Origin: Streptococcus pyogenes
Lineage (GTDB): Bacteria > Bacillota > Bacilli > Lactobacillales > Streptococcaceae
Length of the DNA: 64,000 nt
Direction: 5' to 3'
NCBI RefSeq assembly: GCF_002055535.1
Contig: NZ_LN831034.1
Location: 682,001-746,000 of the forward strand
The translations under genes were made by a program, and so were the position numbers. Positions within the stretch are counted from its first letter, which is position 1. Each line of letters begins with the position of its first letter. Of the stretch, positions 52,830 to 63,399 are shown one piece after another. The notes under the pieces are model-generated. The model did not search any database, was not told the origin of the DNA, and saw only the letters and a program-made list of their open reading frames with translations.

Positions 52830-54929
52830 TTACTGATCGTTTTGCCTAATCACTAGTTGTCCTTCTTTTAGGATTGCCTGAAGTTTTTTGACTTCTGGAT
52901 GGTCAAGATAATAATCAGTTATACGGTCACGAATTTCCTGTTCGATAATACGTCGTAATGGACGAGCTCCCATAGCGTGATTGTACCCTAAATCTATCAA
53001 ATGAGCTTTAGCGTCATCAGTAATCGTTAAACTAATACCTTTTTTTGCGGTGGTTTGATTTACTTCAGCTAGCATTAAATCAACAATTTCTTCTAAACTT
53101 TCTTTTTGCAGATGATTAAATTTAATGATACTATTAAAACGGTTCAAAAACTCTGGTCTGAAATAAGGTGCAATGCGATCCATAATGTTAGACTCAGAAG
53201 TTTCCGTATCTTGTTGGCCAAAACCGGCATTTGATGTAGCAATAATAACGGTATTTTTAAAGTTAATAGTATTTCCTTGTCCATCTGTCAATCGTCCATC
53301 ATCTAATACTTGTAGAAGAAGTGTAATAATTTGAGGATCAGCTTTTTCAATTTCATCTAGTAAGACAATAGCATAAGGGTTACGACGAACACGCTCAGTT
53401 AGGGTATTATTATTATCATCGTAGCCAACATAACCAGCCGTTGTCCCAATCAATTTTGACACAGCAGTGCGATCGTTATATTCGGACATATCAAGTCGAA
53501 TAATAGCATCTTTGGAACCAAATAAATCAAGTGCTAATTGTTTAGCTAACTCTGTTTTACCAACACCAGTTGGACCCACAAAAAGGAAAGAACCTATTGG
53601 ACGTTTACCATCATCAAAACCTGCCCGATTTCGTCGAATAGCACGTGCTACTGCTGCGACAGCCTCATCTTGTCCGATGACATGGCTTTTTAAGCGGCTG
53701 CTAATTCCTTTGAGCCTTTCTAAATCATTAGTCCCCATGTTAGAGACAGGAATACCAGTTAAGCGCTCTACAGACTCTGCGATATCATTGACTGTAGCAG
53801 TGACATTTTGGCTTTGGTTATGTTGCTCAATTTGCTTTTGTAATGTTTCAATCCGTGTTTTTGCTGCTAAAGCTTTTTCAAAGTCTTCTTTGGCGACAGC
53901 TTTTTCTTGACTCTCTTTTTGTTTAGCTATTTCAGTTTCGAGTGTTTTTAAGTCAGTGACCGGGTGTTGCGCAGCTAAATGAGCAGCTGTCATATCCAGT
54001 AAGTCAATTGCTTTATCTGGCAGGCTACGCTGTGGGATGTATTGAATAGAATAATCAACAGCAGCTTTTAGAACATTATCAGGAAGGGTAATATGGTGGT
54101 GTTGTTCATAAAGATTACGAATACCCATTAAAATGTGAAAAGTATCTTCAGCTGATGGTGCATTCACTTTAACTTCATTAAAGCGACGAGCAAGAGCAGC
54201 ATTTTTTAAAATAGTATTGCGGTATTCGTCTTGAGTAGTAGCACCAATCAGTGTTAATTCTCCTCGTGACAAGGCTGGTTTAAGAATATCTGCAAGTCCC
54301 TTTGAGCCTGAATCACTGCTTGTGGCACCAGCACCAACTATTTGATGAATTTCATCAAAAAATAAGATGATATTCCCAGCTTCTTTTACTTCTTGAATCA
54401 AGTTTTGAATGGTCTCTTCAAAGGAACCACGATACTGTGTACCAGCTTCAAGACTAGAAATATCAATTGATACGATTTCCTTGTTTTTAATAGCAGCTGG
54501 GACATCTCCATTAACAATGGCTTGAGCTAAACCTTCAATGACTGCAGTTTTACCGACACCAGCATCTCCGACAAGGACAGGATTATTTTTAGTTCGTCGT
54601 GCCAAGATTTCAGCGGTATCTTGAATTTCTTTGTTACGACCAATGACGGGGTCAAGATGCCCTTGACGAGCTTCTTGTGTTAAGTTAGTTCCGAGTTGAG
54701 TCAATACACTATCAGCTTTAGGTGTTAACATTTGAGAATTTGTTGCTTTGGTTGTCGCTACAGGGAGTTGTCCTGTTTGACGATAGTGTTGGAATTCTTC
54801 GGGAGTTATTTCGCGACCGTTAACGAGATAGCGGGGATTTTCGCTACGATAACCACCCATGTTTGCCATTAATTGATTGAAAATATCATCCATATTTACA
54901 AAAGGATCTTTACCAGAAAAATGTGTCAT
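52830..54929 (-). CDS. clpL: ATP-dependent chaperone ClpL
   Basis: A 699-residue class of Clp/Hsp100 protein with a short N-terminal region ([20 protein letters not shown]), AAA-1 (Walker [10 protein letters not shown], about 115-123), a short coiled middle region (about 310-370) and AAA-2 (Walker [10 protein letters not shown], about 445). The length and the lack of a Clp_N repeat domain fit ClpL rather than ClpC or ClpE. ClpL acts as a stress chaperone without ClpP. The upstream region carries a CtsR operator over the -35. Confidence 0.93.
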
Positions 54930-55066
54930 ATCAGTTACCTCGCAATAAAAAATAGACTATAAGATGTTTGTAAGCAGTCGCAGAATCGTTGTTAGGATTT
55001 CACATGATAGGAAATCCTTTGCTAATAAAATGATTCAGACATTATTTTTACTCATCTTATAGTATT

Positions 55067-55095
55067 ATTATAATCAAAAGGTCAGTAAAGGTCAA
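55067..55095 (-). promoter_or_regulatory. clpL promoter
   Basis: On the minus strand TTGACC (55090-55095), 17-base spacer, TATAAT (55067-55072). It gives a leader of about 130 bases that contains a GGATTTC/GAAATCC hairpin (about 54995-55017). Confidence 0.8.
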
Positions 55096-55096
55096 A
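55080..55096. promoter_or_regulatory. CtsR operator of clpL
   Basis: GGTCAGTAAAGGTCAAA is close to the CtsR direct heptad repeat (R-GTCAAA-NAN-R-GTCAAA), with one diverged half. It covers the clpL -35 and spacer, suited to repression that is relieved by heat. Confidence 0.8.
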
Positions 55097-55241
55097 CAAA
55101 AAACACTTGATTTTCAAAAAGCTAAATAAACACGAAAAGTAAGTGCTTATATGATGACTTTAGAATAAATCATAAGTTTTAAAAAGATCATCCTATTCTA
55201 TAGCACTTAGGCTGTCAATGAGAGAAAAACAAATGTTTTCA

Positions 55242-55270
55242 TTAACAAGTTGGCGCTTTCATGGTATAAT
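55242..55270 (+). promoter_or_regulatory. rpiA promoter
   Basis: TTAACA (55242-55247), 17 bases, TATAAT (55265-55270) preceded by TGG (extended -10). The clpL-rpiA gap holds nothing else recognisable. Confidence 0.75.
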
Positions 55271-55307
55271 AAAGTGCTAAGACGCAATTCTATTATAAGG
55301 GGGAATC

Positions 55308-55991
55308 ATGGAAGCACTCAAAAAAATTGCCGGTGTTACCGCTGCGCAATATGTGACTGATGGCATGACCATTGGGCTTGGAACTGGGTCAACGGCTTAC
55401 TATTTTGTTGAGGAAATTGGCCGTCGCGTAAAGCAAGAAGGACTGCAAGTGGTTGGTGTGACTACGTCAAGTGTGACTAGCAAGCAAGCAGAAGTCTTGG
55501 GCATTCCTTTAAAATCGATAGATGATATTGATAGCATTGACCTCACCGTAGATGGTGCTGATGAAGTGGATAAGAATTTCAATGGAATCAAGGGTGGCGG
55601 CGCAGCCTTACTAATGGAAAAAATTGTTGCAACACCAACAAAAGAATACATCTGGGTTGTTGATGCTTCTAAAATGGTAGAGCATCTGGGTGCCTTTAAG
55701 TTACCAGTCGAAGTCGTTCAATATGGTGCTGATCGTTTGTTCCGTGTCTTTGAAAAAGCTGGTTACAAACCGTCTTTTCGTATGAAAGGTGATAGTCGTT
55801 TGGTGACAGACATGCAAAACTATATTATTGATCTTGATTTGGGTTGTATTAAAGATCCTGTTGCTTTTGGTCACCTGCTAGATGGAACAGTTGGTGTTGT
55901 GGAACACGGTCTCTTTAATGGTATGGTTGATAAGGTGATTGTTGCTAGTAAAGACGGCGTTACTGTTTTAGAAGCGCCTACAGCAGGCTAG
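55308..55991 (+). CDS. rpiA: Ribose-5-phosphate isomerase A
   Basis: A 227-residue isomerase of the pentose phosphate pathway with [14 protein letters not shown] (about 23-36), [17 protein letters not shown] (about 82-98) and the FKLPVEVV segment. It heads a nucleoside and pentose gene group. The ribose 5-phosphate made by DeoB downstream feeds this enzyme. The start follows AAGGGGG. Confidence 0.97.
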
Positions 55992-56067
55992 TCTTAGCAT
56001 ATAACAGCGTTAATATATTTTATAGGTATTGGGGAGTCAACCGTAACCTCCCCTAGATTGGAGACTT

Positions 56068-57279
56068 ATGTCAAAATTTAATCGTATTCACTTGGTTGTT
56101 TTAGACTCTGTCGGTATTGGTGCAGCACCAGATGCTGACAAATTCTTTAATGCTGGTGTAGCTGATACAGATTCTGACACCCTCGGTCATATTTCAGAAG
56201 CAGCAGGCTTATCGGTTCCAAATATGGCAAAAATTGGACTTGGAAACATTTCTCGTCCAATACCACTAAAAACTGTTCCAACAGAAGACAATCCTACTGG
56301 TTACGTGACCAAATTGGAAGAAGTATCTCTTGGAAAAGATACCATGACAGGCCATTGGGAAATTATGGGCTTGAACATTACGGAACCTTTTGACACTTTC
56401 TGGAATGGTTTCCCAGAAGAGATTTTAACTAAGATTGAAGAATTCTCAGGCCGCAAAATCATTCGCGAGGCCAACAAACCTTATTCAGGAACTGCGGTTA
56501 TTGATGATTTTGGTCCGCGTCAAATGGAAACAGGTGAGTTGATTGTTTACACCTCAGCAGACCCAGTGCTTCAAATTGCAGCCCATGAAGACATTATTCC
56601 TGTGGAAGAGCTTTACAAGATTTGTGAATATGCTCGCTCCATCACGCTTGAACGCCCTGCCCTTTTAGGCCGTATTATTGCGCGTCCTTATGTAGGCGAC
56701 CCAGGAAACTTTACACGTACGGCTAACCGTCATGACTATGCAGTGTCTCCTTTCCAAGATACCGTTTTGAACAAACTGGCTGACGCAGGTGTCCCAACTT
56801 ATGCCGTTGGTAAGATTAATGACATCTTTAATGGTTCAGGTATTACAAACGACATGGGACATAATAAGTCGAACAGCCATGGTATTGACACGCTTATTAA
56901 GACTCTTCAATTACCTGAGTTTACTAAGGGATTCTCCTTTACTAACCTCGTTGATTTTGATGCCAACTTTGGTCATCGTCGTGACCCAGAGGGTTATCGC
57001 GACTGCTTGCATGAATTTGACAATCGCCTACCTGAAATCATCGCAAATATGAAAGAAGACGATTTGCTTCTCATCACTGCTGACCATGGTAATGACCCAA
57101 CCTATGCAGGCACCGACCACACTCGTGAATACATTCCATTGCTTGCCTACTCTGTATCCTTTACTGGAAATGGTCTTATTCCACAAGGGCATTTTGCGGA
57201 TATTTCAGCAACTGTTGCAGAAAATTTTGGAGTTGATACAGCCATGATTGGGGAGTCATTCCTTAGTCACTTAAAATAA
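56068..57279 (+). CDS. deoB: Phosphopentomutase
   Basis: A 403-residue metalloenzyme of the alkaline phosphatase superfamily, converting (deoxy)ribose 1-phosphate to the 5-phosphate. It has [14 protein letters not shown] near the start, [11 protein letters not shown] (nucleophile Thr region), HGIDT and [11 protein letters not shown] with metal ligands. Its leader contains a GGGGAG/CTCCCC hairpin (56031-56053) close to the ribosome binding site. It takes the sugar phosphates made by PunA and DeoD. Confidence 0.97.
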
Positions 57280-57297
57280 GAAAGTTAGTAATTGATA

Positions 57298-57738
57298 ATG
57301 GAAGAAATCACGATTTATCATAATCCAAACTGTGGCACTTCACGTAATGTTCTTGCCATGATTCGCCATGCAGGTATTGAGCCTACTATTATTGAGTATT
57401 TGCAGACGCCACCTAATCGGGAGACTTTAATTGAGCTCTTACAATCGATGGGAATCTCTGCAAGAGAACTCTTGCGAACCAATGTTCCTGAATTTGAGGC
57501 TTATGGATTAGCAAATCAAGCAGTAGCTGAGAAAGACATTATTAATGCCATGTTGGCGGATCCAATTTTGATCAATCGTCCTATTGTTGTGACTCGCAAA
57601 GGAGTAAAACTTTGCCGTCCTTCTGAGACCTTACTGGATATTCTTCCTGTTCCCCTGCCTAGTCCTTATATTAAAGAGGATGGCGAGAGTGTGAACCCTA
57701 TTGAGGTAAAAGGAGAAAAAGATGTCATTGATGACTAA
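57298..57738 (+). CDS. arsC: Arsenate reductase, ArsC (glutaredoxin-linked) family
   Basis: A 146-residue protein of the thioredoxin-fold ArsC family, with the N-terminal HNPNCGTSRN (catalytic Cys in a CxxxR setting) and the conserved INRPIVVTRKG and CRPSETLLDILP. The length and the RPIVV and CRPSE motifs resemble R773-type ArsC more than Spx. It lies between deoB and punA, starting 18 bases after deoB, and overlaps punA by 17 bases, so it is cotranslated with nucleoside-cleaving enzymes. The ATG at 57298 is preferred over a TTG two codons earlier. Confidence 0.87.
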   Translation: MEEITIYHNPNCGTSRNVLAMIRHAGIEPTIIEYLQTPPNRETLIELLQSMGISARELLRTNVPEFEAYGLANQAVAEKDIINAMLADPILINRPIVVTRKGVKLCRPSETLLDILPVPLPSPYIKEDGESVNPIEVKGEKDVIDD

Positions 57739-58531
57739 AATTAACGAAACAAAAGACTTTTTAGTTACTAAAGGAATTGAAACTCCAGAATTTGGATTAA
57801 TTCTGGGTTCAGGCCTTGGTGAACTTGCTGAAGAAGTAGAAAATGCTATTGTTATTGATTATGCAGATATTCCAAACTGGGGCAAGTCAACGGTTGTTGG
57901 CCATGCTGGAAAGTTAGTTTACGGAGATTTAGCTGGCCGTAAAGTGCTCGCCTTACAAGGACGTTTCCATTTTTACGAAGGAAATCCGCTTGAAGTGGTG
58001 ACTTTCCCTGTTCGTGTCATGAAAGCTCTGGGATGTGAAGGCGTTCTTGTCACAAATGCAGCTGGTGGTATCGGCTACGGCCCAGGTACCTTGATGGCAA
58101 TCACAGACCATATCAATATGACCGGAAATAACCCACTAATCGGTGAAAACTTGGACGAGTTTGGTCCACGCTTTCCTGATATGTCTGATGCCTATACTAA
58201 GGTTTATCGCAATAAGGCACATGAAGTGGCTGAAAAAATGAACATCAAACTAGAAGATGGTGTTTATATGGGCTTGACTGGTCCAACTTATGAAACACCA
58301 GCAGAAATCCGTGCTTTCAAAGTATTAGGAGCAGATGCTGTTGGCATGTCAACTGTACCGGAAGTTATTGTGGCTGCTCATTCTGGACTTAAAGTGCTTG
58401 GTATTTCAGCTATTACAAACTTTGCAGCTGGTTTCCAATCAGAATTGAACCATGAAGAAGTTGTGGAAGTGACCCAACATATCAAAGAAGATTTCAAAGG
58501 TCTTGTTAAAGCTATTTTAGCGGAGTTGTAG
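57722..58531 (+). CDS. punA: Purine nucleoside phosphorylase
   Basis: A 269-residue trimeric-type PNP cleaving inosine and guanosine with phosphate. It has GSGLGELAEEV (phosphate loop), GRFHFYEG, VTNAAGGIG, GPTYETPAEIR and VGMSTVPEVIVAAH. The ATG at 57722 has GGAG six bases upstream within arsC. Another ATG lies three codons on. A 660-base repeat-filled gap separates it from deoD. Confidence 0.96.
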   Translation: MSLMTKINETKDFLVTKGIETPEFGLILGSGLGELAEEVENAIVIDYADIPNWGKSTVVGHAGKLVYGDLAGRKVLALQGRFHFYEGNPLEVVTFPVRVMKALGCEGVLVTNAAGGIGYGPGTLMAITDHINMTGNNPLIGENLDEFGPRFPDMSDAYTKVYRNKAHEVAEKMNIKLEDGVYMGLTGPTYETPAEIRAFKVLGADAVGMSTVPEVIVAAHSGLKVLGISAITNFAAGFQSELNHEEVVEVTQHIKEDFKGLVKAILAEL

Positions 58532-58623
58532 GACGAACAAAATCAACTGGAGCATTATTACAGGAATGTTATTTTATGTCGTCAGTTTGGCACATCTGTT
58601 CGCAATAAAAAAATCAAAAAATA

Positions 58624-59100
58624 ATCACGGAGTGTGAGTTCCATGAATGTTGAACTCAGATTCTAGCTTTTCTAACTAACATAACCAACGAAGGGAAAGA
58701 GACGTATTCGGTTTAAATTGAGTATGGACTCGAACATTTCTTCGTATTAATTTTTAAATAATAAAGGAAAGAGAGTTAGTCCTTTCTTATTTGAACTCGA
58801 TTTTTAGCTCTCTTCTATTCAATATCAATTATGAAAGGAATGGGGTTGTATTCAATTGAATACGGGCGGAAAGCTCGGAAACTAGATAAACTAACTTTTG
58901 AGCTCACACATGGCGTTAGTTCCCTAAATTTCAGTCGCTTTCTGTCCGCCCTCTGACCTTCTACAAAATAAAAGGAAAGGTAGGGCTAACTGTATTCATT
59001 GAATTGAATACGGGCGGAGAACTGTTTTTCTTCCTTATAAAAAATAAAAAAATAAGAAAGGTGAGGGCTGAGTTCATTAATTTGAATTCGGGCTAAGGAC
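58624..59100 (+). repeat. Cluster of degenerate hairpin-forming repeats between punA and deoD
   Basis: The 660-base gap is filled by at least six related units beginning near 58624, 58692, 58765, 58832, 58973 and 59056. Most start (G)GAAAGg, several carry GGGCT, and all contain arms like GTATTCA or GAGTTC facing TGAATAC or GAACTC. Examples are GTATTCAATTGAATAC near 58848 and TGAGTTC/GAACTCA near 58634. Most later units end in ACGGGCGGA or TCGGGCT. Spacing is irregular (about 67-141). Longer pairing is possible, for example GGGCGG..AAAGC near 58863 with its complement near 58937-58951. They are not identical enough for a CRISPR array. No convincing gene is present. Confidence 0.6.
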
Positions 59101-59193
59101 TTGGTCAAAAAGATAAGTTGTCTAGAAAATCAGGATTTTCTGCCAACTTCCTATTTTGCCATCGTTCTTTTAACGCCCTCAGTATCATAATTT

Positions 59194-59907
59194 ATGTCTA
59201 TCCATATTTCTGCCAAAAAAGGCGATATTGCTGATAAAATTCTTCTACCTGGAGATCCTTTGCGCGCGAAATTTATCGCTGAAAATTTCCTAGAAGATGC
59301 AGTGTGTTTTAACGAAGTGCGTAACATGTTTGGCTACACAGGAACTTACAAAGGGCACCGCGTTTCTGTCATGGGAACTGGTATGGGGATGCCTTCGATC
59401 TCTATCTATGCTCGTGAATTAATCGTTGATTACGGTGTCAAAACATTGATCCGTGTTGGTACTGCGGGTGCGATTGACCCAGAAGTTCATGTGCGTGAAT
59501 TGGTGCTTGCCCAAGCAGCAGCAACCAACTCAAATATTATCCGTAATGACTTCCCAGAATTTGATTTCCCACAAATTGCTGATTTTGGTTTACTTGACAA
59601 GGCTTACCATATCGCCAGAGAAATGGGAGTAACAACTCACGTTGGGAATGTGCTTTCTTCTGATGTCTTTTACACTAACATGCCTGAGCGTAATATGGCT
59701 CTTGGTAAATTGGGTGTTAAAGCCATCGAAATGGAAGCAGCAGCTCTTTACTATTTAGCTGCTCAGCACCATGTCAAAGCCCTTGGAATCATGACGATCT
59801 CAGATAACTTGAATGATCCAACCGAAGATACTACAGCTGAAGAGCGCCAAACAACTTTCACTGATATGATGAAGGTCGGCTTGGAAACCTTAATTGCCAA
59901 TGACTAA
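59194..59907 (+). CDS. deoD: Purine nucleoside phosphorylase DeoD-type
   Basis: A 237-residue hexameric-type PNP with [45 protein letters not shown] and [15 protein letters not shown]. It handles adenosine as well as 6-oxopurine nucleosides. The ATG has no ribosome binding site. A TATCAT ending six bases upstream could be a -10 of a leaderless transcript, but the -35 is poor. It overlaps the next gene by eight bases. Confidence 0.96.
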
Positions 59908-60688
59908 TAATCAAACACTAGACATCCTTTTGGATGTCTATGCTTATAATCACGCCTTTAGAATTGCTAAAGCCTTGCCAAATATCCCTAAAACTGCCCT
60001 CTATTTACTAGAGATGTTAAAAGAGCGCAGAGAATTGAACTTTGCCTTTCTAGCGGAACATGCAGCAGAGAATCGGACCATTGAAGACCAGTATCACTGT
60101 TCATTATGGCTTAACCAATCGCTTGAAGATGAGCAGATTGCCAATTACATTTTGGATTTAGAAGTTAAAGTAAAAAACGGTGCTATTATTGATTTCGTCA
60201 GGTCAGTGTCGCCTATTCTTTACCGACTTTTTCTCAGACTAATCACGTCAGAAATTCCAAACTTCAAGGCTTATATTTTTGATACAAAGAATGACCAATA
60301 TGATACCTGGCATTTTCAGGCCATGTTGGAATCTGATCACGAGGTTTTCAAGGCTTACCTGTCTCAAAAGCAGTCTCGCAATGTGACGACCAAAAGCTTA
60401 GCAGACATGTTGACGTTGACCTCCTTACCTCAGGAAATCAAGGACTTGGTTTTTTTGTTACGACATTTTGAAAAGGCTGTCCGTAATCCTCTGGCTCATT
60501 TGATTAAGCCTTTTGATGAAGAGGAACTGCATCGCACCACTCATTTTTCTTCTCAGGCTTTTTTGGAAAACATTATCACCTTGGCGACTTTTTCTGGTGT
60601 AATCTACCGACGTGAGCCTTTTTACTTTGATGACATGAATGCCATTATTAAAAAGGAGTTGAGCCTTTGGAGACAATCTATTGTCTGA
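59900..60688 (+). CDS. HEPN-motif protein, Csm6-like, orphan
   Basis: A 262-residue helical soluble protein. Near the C-terminus [15 protein letters not shown] contains R195-N-P-L-A-H200, the R-x4-H motif of HEPN ribonucleases, preceded by a long helix ([16 protein letters not shown]) as in HEPN folds. The N-terminal part ([20 protein letters not shown]) resembles the start of the HEPN half of Csm6. No CARF or other sensing domain is obvious, and no CRISPR genes are near. The ATG lies inside the deoD stop region (ATGACTAA, eight-base overlap), so it is translationally coupled to a nucleoside phosphorylase. RNase function is inferred from the motif only. Confidence 0.65.
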
Positions 60689-60696
60689 TATTTATC

Positions 60697-60744
60697 AAAA
60701 AACACGATAACTTGACCGATACAGGTCTTACTACCGTGTTTTTT
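60697..60744. terminator. Bidirectional terminator between the HEPN gene and cpsY
   Basis: AAAAAACACG (60697-60706) pairs with CGTGTTTTTT (60735-60744). A small GACC/GGTC stem is nested inside. It sits between convergent genes. Confidence 0.8.
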
Positions 60745-60766
60745 AGTATGACGATTGAAAAAGACA

Positions 60767-61672
60767 TTAATCAAAGGTTACTTCTTCGAGAAGGTATTCG
60801 ATAAAACGTTCCCCCATTTTGGACAAGTTGGCTTTTTCATGCTTGATAAAAACAATGTCAATTTCGTCAGGGACATCTAGCGGGATAGCCACAATCTGGT
60901 CACCATTTAGATTGCTATTTAGAATACCACTGGCAACGGTGTAGCCATCTAAACCAATCATTAAGTTAAAGAGGGTGGCACGGTCACTGACCACAATTGA
61001 TTTGTTGTGGGGCATCTGGGACATCATCTCTTCTGAAAAATAAAAGGAGTTGTGAATCCCTTGGTCATAGCTCAGGTAAGGAAAATCTCTCAAGTCGTCC
61101 ATGCTTAATAGGCTTTTAGTTGCTAGAGGATTTGATTTGCTGACAAAAATATGAGGCTGTGCCTTAAATAATGGAGAGGCGGTCAAATGATTGTCATCAA
61201 ATAATTTGGTCAAGACATCTCGGTTATAGTCGTTGATAAAGAGAACACCAATTTCAGATCGAAAGTTTTTGACATCATCAATGATTTCCCAAGTTCTTGT
61301 CTCGCGCAAAAAGAGTTCATACCGAGTCATGTCGGTCCGCTTGAGGAGTGAGACAAATGCATTGACTACGAAGGCATAATGTTGAGATGAAACGCTAAAG
61401 AGCTCTCGGCCAGTATTGTGGTTTTTATAGCGGTCTTCTAACAGTGATGTTTGCTCTATAATTTGGCGAGCATAAGATAAAAATTCCACCCCATCTTTTG
61501 TCAAGGTGATCCCTTTAGGATTTCGGTTGAAAATGGTAATGCCCATCTCCATTTCCAAATCCTTGACCGCATTGGATAGACTTGGTTGTGTGATAAATAA
61601 TTGCTTAGCAGCTTCATTCATAGAGCCGCACTCAACAATTTTGATAATATAATGCAGTTGTTGAATTCTCAT
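60767..61672 (-). CDS. cpsY: LysR-family regulator (CpsY/MtaR type)
   Basis: A 301-residue LysR-type regulator with an N-terminal helix-turn-helix (MRIQQLHYIIKIVECGSMNE, then AAKQLFITQPSLSNAVKDLE) and a substrate-binding domain. Its start and length match streptococcal CpsY/MtaR, a regulator of methionine metabolism and surface properties. It is divergent from an unknown ORF, and a dyad lies between them. Confidence 0.85.
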   Translation of the reverse strand: MRIQQLHYIIKIVECGSMNEAAKQLFITQPSLSNAVKDLEMEMGITIFNRNPKGITLTKDGVEFLSYARQIIEQTSLLEDRYKNHNTGRELFSVSSQHYAFVVNAFVSLLKRTDMTRYELFLRETRTWEIIDDVKNFRSEIGVLFINDYNRDVLTKLFDDNHLTASPLFKAQPHIFVSKSNPLATKSLLSMDDLRDFPYLSYDQGIHNSFYFSEEMMSQMPHNKSIVVSDRATLFNLMIGLDGYTVASGILNSNLNGDQIVAIPLDVPDEIDIVFIKHEKANLSKMGERFIEYLLEEVTFD

Positions 61673-61782
61673 AAGTACAGTCTAGCTCAAAAAAAATAAA
61701 GACGCAAGCACAAACGTCATCATGGGTTTAGAACTTTGAAAAAGCGCTGGAGTCTTTTCTCAATATGGCCTAGGATAAATAT

Positions 61783-61805
61783 GATTCAATTTTGAGAGTT
61801 GAATC
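61783..61805. promoter_or_regulatory. Candidate LysR-type binding dyad
   Basis: GATTCAA and TTGAATC form a perfect 7-base inverted repeat with a 9-base spacer in the divergent cpsY interval. The geometry suits a LysR-type site. Binding is inferred. Confidence 0.5.
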
Positions 61806-61893
61806 TATCAATTTCATTGCCCTTTTATTTTTCTTGTGTTATATTAATAGTATTAACAAATAGGTATTTTTCTAATCAAAGGGTGGTGGTCGT

Positions 61894-62430
61894 GTGAATG
61901 TTACTGAACAAAATAGTCATCAAATCTTAATCCAAAAGTTATTGGTCAGTATCCACTATTTGACTCTTTTTCGAGATGAACTGAAGCTTGTAGAACGAAC
62001 TCCTTCTATACTTGGAGGGGAATTTCCAGCTCATTTAGTACAGTCTGAGTTGGGAGATATTGTTGCGGCCATTGATACCTTGGATATGCAGCAACGCTTG
62101 ATTGAGTCTACCTTTTGGTATGAAGAATCAGCTTTTAAGTTGATGAACAAAACTTTGGATATTGTCGATAATTGGATTAAAGGAGTGGATCATCTGATAG
62201 ATTTATGCCAGTCCAAAGAAGTCTTTCAAATTATTATTGGAGATAAACGCATTCGAGTTTTTGGGGTCTTAAGTGATGTTTTTTCATCTTTAAAAGTGAG
62301 TGCTTTGTCACTTAAGGAAGCTCCTATTCCGGATGTGCTCTATGAACATATCCAGAGGGTTAATCTTGAAGAAGAAGCTTTTATAAAATATTACCAAAGC
62401 CCTAAGGTACCCACAGGTGAGTTTGAATAA
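61894..62430 (+). CDS. Unknown helical protein
   Basis: A 178-residue protein predicted to be mostly alpha-helical and soluble, beginning MNVTEQNSHQILIQKLLVSI from a GTG start with AAAGGGTGG upstream. Segments such as VAAIDTLDMQQRLIESTFWY and LDIVDNWIKGVDHLIDLC are amphipathic. No catalytic motif or family is recognised. It is divergent from cpsY and lies upstream of pyrF but not in its operon, as a strong promoter intervenes. Confidence 0.7.
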   Translation: MNVTEQNSHQILIQKLLVSIHYLTLFRDELKLVERTPSILGGEFPAHLVQSELGDIVAAIDTLDMQQRLIESTFWYEESAFKLMNKTLDIVDNWIKGVDHLIDLCQSKEVFQIIIGDKRIRVFGVLSDVFSSLKVSALSLKEAPIPDVLYEHIQRVNLEEEAFIKYYQSPKVPTGEFE

Positions 62431-62517
62431 ATGATTGGGTAAAAATGATAAAATGAGTTGACGTAAGTATACAAAAAAAGATATAGTAGGAAAGATGTGT
62501 TCAAATAACAAAAAGTT

Positions 62518-62546
62518 TTGACATCTTGTTTTAAAAAAGCTATAAT
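62518..62546 (+). promoter_or_regulatory. Consensus promoter of pyrF-pyrE
   Basis: TTGACA (62518-62523), 17 bases, TATAAT (62541-62546): a full consensus promoter. Transcription should start near 62553, giving a leader of about 154 bases. Confidence 0.9.
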
Positions 62547-62561
62547 AGTTTAAATTTAGAC

Positions 62562-62664
62562 ACCTTTAAGTGAGTCCAGAGAGGCAAACAAGGTATACAA
62601 GATAAAAAAAGGGAATTCCCTTTTAGTTTGCTGTAGCCTCGCTTCTTTGGTAGCGAGGCTTTTT
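62562..62664 (+). promoter_or_regulatory. PyrR-dependent attenuator of pyrFE
   Basis: AGTCCAGAGAGGC (62573-62585) is the PyrR-binding loop, flanked by ACCTT/AAGGT arms (anti-antiterminator). GAGGCAAAC can alternatively pair with GTTTGC..GCCTC downstream (antiterminator). The terminator is AGCCTCGCT with AGCGAGGCT (62635-62660) and TTTTT. An extra perfect palindrome, AAAAGGGAATTCCCTTTT, lies at 62607-62624. By the known mechanism, PyrR with UMP favours termination. Confidence 0.93.
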
Positions 62665-62706
62665 GGTGCTTAATGAGATATTGACACATTATAGAAAGGA
62701 TAAGTT

Positions 62707-63399
62707 ATGAAAGAAGAACGCCCAATTATTGCTTTAGACTTTTCATCATTTGAGGAGACTAAAGCATTTTTAGACTTATTTCCAGCAGAAGAAAAACTAT
62801 ACGTGAAAATTGGTATGGAATTATATTATGCGCAAGGACCAGATATTGTTCGGTATATCAAATCGTTAGGGCATAATGTATTTTTGGATTTAAAATTACA
62901 TGATATTCCAAATACTGTTCGTGCTGCTATGGCAGTTCTTAAAGAATTAGATATTGATATGGCAACTGTTCATGCAGCTGGTGGTGTAGAGATGCTAAAA
63001 GCAGCTCGAGAAGGACTAGGTCAAGGCCCTACCTTAATTGCGGTAACGCAGCTAACTTCAACCAGTGAAGACCAAATGCGTGGTGATCAAAATATTCAAA
63101 CGAGTCTTTTAGAGTCTGTTTTGCATTACAGCAAGGGGGCAGCTAAAGCTCAGCTAGATGGGGCGGTTTGTTCGGCACAAGAAGTAGAAGCTATCAAGGC
63201 GGTGACGCCTACGGGATTTACTTGCTTAACTCCTGGCATTCGTCCTAAAGGCAGTAATATTGGCGATCAAAAACGAGTGATGACTCCAAACCAAGCAAGA
63301 CGCATTGGAAGTGATTATATTGTGGTAGGGCGACCAATTACCCAGGCAAAAGACCCAGTGGCTGCTTACCAAGCCATAAAAGCTGAGTGGGCAGGCTAA
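62707..63399 (+). CDS. pyrF: Orotidine 5'-phosphate decarboxylase
   Basis: A 230-residue TIM-barrel enzyme making UMP from OMP. It has [18 protein letters not shown], the catalytic [10 protein letters not shown] segment, and [18 protein letters not shown] with [14 protein letters not shown] at the phosphate site. It is read from the PyrR-regulated leader and followed by pyrE after 57 bases. Confidence 0.97.

Follow-up and report, generated by a model that had tools for sequence, protein, structure and literature searches.

The window analysed here, a 64,000-nucleotide stretch of Streptococcus pyogenes DNA (contig NZ_LN831034.1, positions 682,001 to 746,000), carries an open reading frame (ORF) at 59900-60688 on the plus strand whose product is the RNA-cutting half of Csm6, made up of the helical 6H and HEPN parts, without the sensor half. 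Csm6 is the switchable RNase of type III CRISPR systems. The ORF opens with an ATG and codes for a stand-alone HEPN protein of 262 amino acids, while the longest listed frame opens two codons upstream, at a TTG at position 59894. The Csm6 HEPN domain was recognised by PF09659 at 70.6 bits against a cut-off of 23.4, and NCBIfam TIGR02672 matched at 100.4 bits, which is below its equivalog cut-off of 150, with the match beginning only at model position 187. Similarly, E. italicus Csm6 fold-aligned to the window protein only from its residue 185. No CARF model was among the Pfam matches, and the alignments to Csm6 covered the HEPN half only, in agreement with an original prediction, made from the DNA letters alone, that the protein has no sensing domain. 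That prediction had also described a helical, HEPN-type ORF bearing an RNPLAH motif (R195, H200), and had set a structural match to HEPN as one of its tests. The motif is present, the predicted structure is almost all helix (mean pLDDT 93.2), and a fold match to the helical HEPN fold was found. An R-x4-H motif by itself could arise by chance, which does not hold for the agreement in profile, sequence and fold. Many relatives bear the NCBI name 'LytR family transcriptional regulator', an identity that we rejected as this name has no supporting Pfam or NCBIfam match.

The catalytic motif is retained among relatives. Codons R195-N-P-L-A-H200 lie at 60482-60499 on the plus strand, as computed from the ORF start, and R195, N196, P197 and H200 were invariant across an alignment of 53 rows, in which the window protein was joined by 52 relatives picked from the best 120 of 200. 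R195, N196 and H200 were also kept in every row of a 74-row set, in which 73 of the 79 named streptococcal loci (the six with frames shorter than 235 amino acids were excluded) accompanied the window protein, so the anticipated conservation of R195 and H200 among streptococci was borne out. D98, R101 and P105 of a second conserved cluster, encoded by codons D98-F-V-R101-S-V-S-P105 (60191-60214, plus strand), are invariant in the aligned stand-alone proteins. A 28-row alignment spanning the streptococcal proteins and stand-alone proteins from Aerococcaceae contained ten invariant positions: D98, R101, P105, L167, R188, E191, K192, R195, N196 and H200.

The frame, catalytic cluster and synteny of intact copies are under purifying selection. 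The ratio of nonsynonymous to synonymous substitution (dN/dS) of the HEPN gene was 0.112 and 0.073 against two close relatives, the only two of five pairs for which it could be computed, compared with 0.024 and 0.017 for deoD, the gene upstream. The earlier suggestion of a decayed Csm6-like protein therefore fails for intact copies, in which frame and catalytic residues are retained. Some species do have broken copies: among the 119 carrier genomes, at least 7 have the gene split or interrupted (G015, G043, G045, G048, G199, G205 and G209), while G137 and G266 have one stop within the match, yet keep a 257-amino-acid frame open. Frames shorter than 235 amino acids were found in 6 of the 79 named loci. 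Three of these six, in S. halichoeri (L131), S. gallolyticus BI02 (L172) and S. sobrinus (L174), lack R-N-x-x-[A/S]-H and are probable broken copies.

In a model search of 284 genomes, each from a different Streptococcus species, we detected the stand-alone gene, including some broken copies, in 119. The label 'orphan' given by the original prediction thus needs qualifying, as the protein belongs to a family that extends to Aerococcaceae and has a solved S. mutans structure. Among the named loci, deoD lies directly upstream (within 164 bases) in 77 of 79, and on the same side but at a distance of about 1 kb in the remaining two; cpsY falls inside the fetched flank in 69 of 79. The HEPN start codon lies between -11 and +2 bases from the deoD stop in 70 of 79, which indicates that translational coupling is a shared trait. 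Distances between HEPN proteins correlated with the corresponding distances for cpsY (r 0.786) and for deoD (r 0.691), and none of 999 permutations gave a correlation as high. No relative was confirmed among 27 pattern matches in viral contigs, the plasmids searched yielded no match to the gene, and the window protein had no match in PHROG. On the strength of its position, these tracking distances and the lack of viral-contig or plasmid relatives, the stand-alone gene is chromosomal and mostly vertically inherited; a phage origin was rejected, given the PHROG and viral-contig results.

In the window, the coupling takes the form of an 8-base overlap (ATGACTAA) between the start of the HEPN ORF and the end of deoD, a gene for a deoD-type purine nucleoside phosphorylase (59194-59907, plus strand; ORF and profile match) whose stop lies inside the HEPN gene start. 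This overlap, like a terminator after the HEPN gene, had been noted beforehand. ORF coordinates confirm the former; for the latter, folding detected a terminator-like hairpin with A/T-rich stem ends past the HEPN stop (60697-60744, plus strand; -17 kcal/mol, z -3.83), the folding energy of which was matched by 0 of 200 shuffles, although a simple terminator scan missed it. Farther upstream lies a second purine nucleoside phosphorylase gene (57722-58531, plus strand; PNP_UDP_1 match), which we take to be punA. The gap of about 660 bases between it and deoD (58532-59193) has no long ORF and contains short repeats like gaattgaatacgggcgga. On the other side, a LysR-type regulator gene on the minus strand (60767-61672; ORF and neighbourhood), presumably cpsY, bounds the deoD-HEPN segment on its far side in most relatives.

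The S. pyogenes genome contains one Csm6-HEPN match, and no Csm1/Cas10 match was found in it by a search that covered type III, other CRISPR types not being searched. Nine other long ORFs of 52830-63399 had no PADLOC match at E 1e-5 except for a Clp-type ATPase (52830-54929), whose seven matches were all to ATPase-type models, two of them CARF-AAA; the statement of the original prediction that no CRISPR genes are nearby accordingly stood. Across the genus, Csm1/Cas10 scored above cut-off in 17 of 284 genomes, and the same 17 have a full-length Csm6 above cut-off. Seven of these 17 also carry the stand-alone gene, and 112 of the 119 carriers are without Csm1/Cas10 above cut-off, one of them (G026) having a weak 21.9-bit match. 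The stand-alone gene and type III systems co-occur as by chance (7/119 vs 10/165, Fisher p 1.0), and we rejected a link to type III presence.

Their positions are related nonetheless. In each of the seven genomes that have both, the interval from the stand-alone gene to cpsY contains cas10 and csm6, all on one contig, while another nine type III-A loci lie elsewhere, in genomes without the stand-alone gene. In genome G239, a type III-A locus opens 0.2 kb past deoD, with cas1 after deoD and csm6 abutting cpsY; no HEPN gene is found between deoD and cas1, and the locus thus sits where the stand-alone HEPN gene would otherwise be. With 8 of 17 type III-A loci between deoD and cpsY (L053-L059 and L068/L195), this interval seems to be a favoured location for such loci and not a functional unit. 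In the one locus checked by Pfam (L057), SIR2, Cas1, Cas10 and Csm6 domains were confirmed, and we assume the identities of its other cas genes from size, order and recall. The SIR2-family gene of this locus (L057:3917-4654) directly follows the stand-alone HEPN gene and precedes cas1. A relic of the neighbouring type III-A locus as sole origin of the stand-alone gene was rejected, because the gene stands beside a full csm6 in seven genomes and its kin are of clostridial type, unlike the adjacent csm6.

Outside Streptococcus, a survey of 395 genomes of the order found matches confined to the HEPN half in 23 genomes of one family, which the names of close relatives identify as Aerococcaceae. 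At all 19 fetched loci of these 23 (L176-L194; Pfam checked in L190), an EPSP-synthase-family gene, which we take to be MurA, lies immediately downstream, and rho is present within 17 of 19. Stand-alone copies outside Lactobacillales were sought in a phylum-wide survey of 398 genomes, which yielded 18 matching genomes, 16 of them not Streptococcus; in 14 of these 16 the match starts in the CARF part, and in the remaining two, G642 and G625, it is ambiguous. Type III-A Csm6 proteins of streptococci and relatives keep R195, N196 and H200, but 31 of the 32 full-length rows lack R101, P105 and E191 (the exception is L074). Clostridial-type full-length Csm6 proteins keep R101, P105 and E191 in 40, 41 and 40 of 41 rows, respectively, and this sharing of residues suggests that the stand-alone proteins come from the clostridial branch by loss of CARF. 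One genome, G505 (Dolosicoccus paucivorans by protein identity), has both a full-length clostridial-type Csm6 (L074) and a stand-alone HEPN protein (L192). In a tree sampling every third of the 73 streptococcal rows plus the window protein, and every third of the best 120 of 483 clostridial matches plus P0122, the streptococcal and Aerococcaceae sets each formed one clade (100/99 and 100/100). The best tree grouped the Aerococcaceae set with clostridial-type Csm6 (63/82), nested among them, and left the streptococcal set out of that group, with unsettled bootstrap and several long branches, and a single clade of all stand-alone proteins was not rejected by the approximately unbiased (AU) test (p 0.206). 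CARF may thus have been lost once or twice, both being compatible with this p value.

How such a protein might act is suggested by a Csm6 from another bacterium. According to the available part of PMC4748810, T. thermophilus Csm6 is a dimeric HEPN protein that cleaves single-stranded RNA in a composite, metal-independent active site; mutating R, N or H abolishes activity, and the delta 1-190 form, from which CARF has been removed, retains full activity. In architecture the window protein matches this truncation, and it shares all motif residues. It would therefore, as our best guess, form a symmetric homodimer in which two R-x4-H motifs make one composite metal-independent site, and we consider it likely that this dimer cuts single-stranded RNA as T. 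thermophilus Csm6 does. Without CARF, the usual switch by cyclic oligoadenylate would not be open to it. Low expression, coupled in translation to deoD, probably limits its dose instead, unless a ligand or partner acting at the 6H/HEPN surface does so. Because the neighbours back to position 57.7 kb include two purine nucleoside phosphorylase genes, a supply of nucleosides from degraded RNA would be coherent: the most likely role, a weakly supported one, is to break down RNA when the cell is stressed or starved and so supply the purine-nucleoside salvage enzymes encoded in this segment. The tie to nucleoside state proposed originally is thus possible, with gene position as its basis. As for descent, a CARF-HEPN Csm6 would have lost CARF and now be inherited with the chromosome.

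We regard this reading as a whole (a CARF-less Csm6 RNase, coupled to deoD, acting in RNA turnover and descended by CARF loss) as somewhat favoured, and a number of observations weigh against it. The assays in the available part of PMC4748810 used T. thermophilus, S. epidermidis and P. horikoshii proteins, the S. mutans protein not being among them, and that part shows no RNase activity for any stand-alone member. Some restraint would be expected for a CARF-free nuclease, and none was found. The gene is missing from 165 of 284 Streptococcus genomes, and three of the five pairs for dN/dS were saturated for it. Over 60 loci, the mean p-distance was 0.464 for the HEPN protein, 0.155 for cpsY and 0.130 for deoD, so that the protein changes about 3-fold faster than its neighbours. 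Given this fast change, its patchiness and its breakage, the gene is dispensable and resembles a defence gene more than a core RNA-processing gene. Finally, a deoD match was found in only 1 of 19 Aerococcaceae loci, a context that counts against any role tied to nucleoside salvage.

The main rival to the RNA-turnover role is defence, in which the protein would be an abortive-infection RNase, silent in healthy cells and freed by a trigger during phage attack with no CRISPR system required. HEPN RNases are common in abortive-infection and toxin-antitoxin systems (PMC3710099, in the part available), and rapid divergence, a patchy distribution and broken copies are in keeping with such a role. The fixed chromosomal position beside deoD does not, nor do the lack of a partner or antitoxin-like gene among the nine neighbours tested, the absence of copies from viral contigs and plasmids, and distances that track the chromosome. 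As no partner, mobile-element or defence context found here supports the abortive defence raised in the original prediction, we consider it unlikely.

Still less probable is a function in trans with type III systems, as a sensorless second Csm6 or as an enzyme that dampens the response by hydrolysing cyclic oligoadenylate, left over and kept for another reason in species without type III. The placement of cas10 and csm6 in the seven genomes with both, and the arrangement in G239, speak for it, and E. italicus Csm6 reportedly degrades its own activator. The 112 carriers without Csm1 above cut-off, the independence of the two in the Fisher test and the nine type III-A loci located elsewhere all argue in the other direction. 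We give the least credence to a protein that is no longer a nuclease and keeps the HEPN fold for a structural or nucleic-acid-binding function: no activity is reported for the S. mutans protein in the available part of PMC4748810, but a pure scaffold would need none of the catalytic R, N and H that are invariant in all near-full-length aligned copies.

As the gene is retained intact next to a nucleoside-recycling gene in many species without the matching CRISPR system, one piece of a CRISPR weapon has apparently turned into an ordinary chromosomal gene. More broadly, we tentatively suggest, as one possibility among others, that half of a CRISPR effector was co-opted, on one or two occasions within Lactobacillales, as a housekeeping or stress RNase that is passed on vertically, independent of cyclic oligoadenylate and controlled through coupling to metabolic genes or a new signal at 6H/HEPN; the coupling partner would be deoD in Streptococcus and the MurA-like gene with rho in Aerococcaceae. 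A large sensor-less family whose active site stays intact in species that lack type III systems would be a CRISPR effector made chromosomal gene, and raises the question of how the cell tolerates an unsensored RNase. The fold, the family and the CARF-less S. mutans structure are already known. In the literature searched, with subscription papers outside its scope, we recognised no further paper on the stand-alone protein and did not find the extent of the family, the deoD coupling, the clostridial-type ancestry, the Aerococcaceae counterpart or the adjacent type III-A site; the available part of PMC8489961 contains nothing on the stand-alone gene. A gene of this kind labelled 'Csm6' or 'LytR family regulator' implies neither a type III system nor a transcription factor, and the existing crystal structure (4RGP) makes direct activity testing possible.

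Compared with known systems, the gene lacks the hallmarks of HEPN toxins of toxin-antitoxin or abortive-infection systems: the nine ORFs included no adjacent antitoxin, MNT or known defence partner in PADLOC at E 1e-5, and no copy was found in the plasmids and viral contigs searched. The type III CRISPR locus typical of Csm6 is absent from its own genome and present in 7 of 119 carriers. SmCsm6 from S. mutans (PDB 4RGP), a species other than that of the window, is the CARF-less solved structure of the family; 4RGP is labelled 'Csm6_III-A', and a type III role for the S. mutans protein is not shown in the available part of PMC4748810. T. thermophilus Csm6 delta 1-190 (PMC4748810, same part) likewise lacks CARF, and is an artificial construct of a distant Csm6. 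Csm6 of the S. thermophilus/S. sanguinis/E. italicus type differs in having CARF and, in those 31 of 32 rows, in being without R101, P105 and E191. The Aerococcaceae stand-alone proteins, like the streptococcal ones, consist of 6H and HEPN only and share the same ten invariant positions, but have 15-19% identity to the window protein and other neighbours. Clostridial-type Csm6 (CARF-6H-HEPN; Dolosicoccus paucivorans P0121/L074) differs in having Cas_Csm6_CARF and a length of about 445 amino acids, and shares with the stand-alone proteins D98, F/Y99, R101, S/T104 and P105, as well as R188, E191, R195, N196 and H200, in most of 41 rows.
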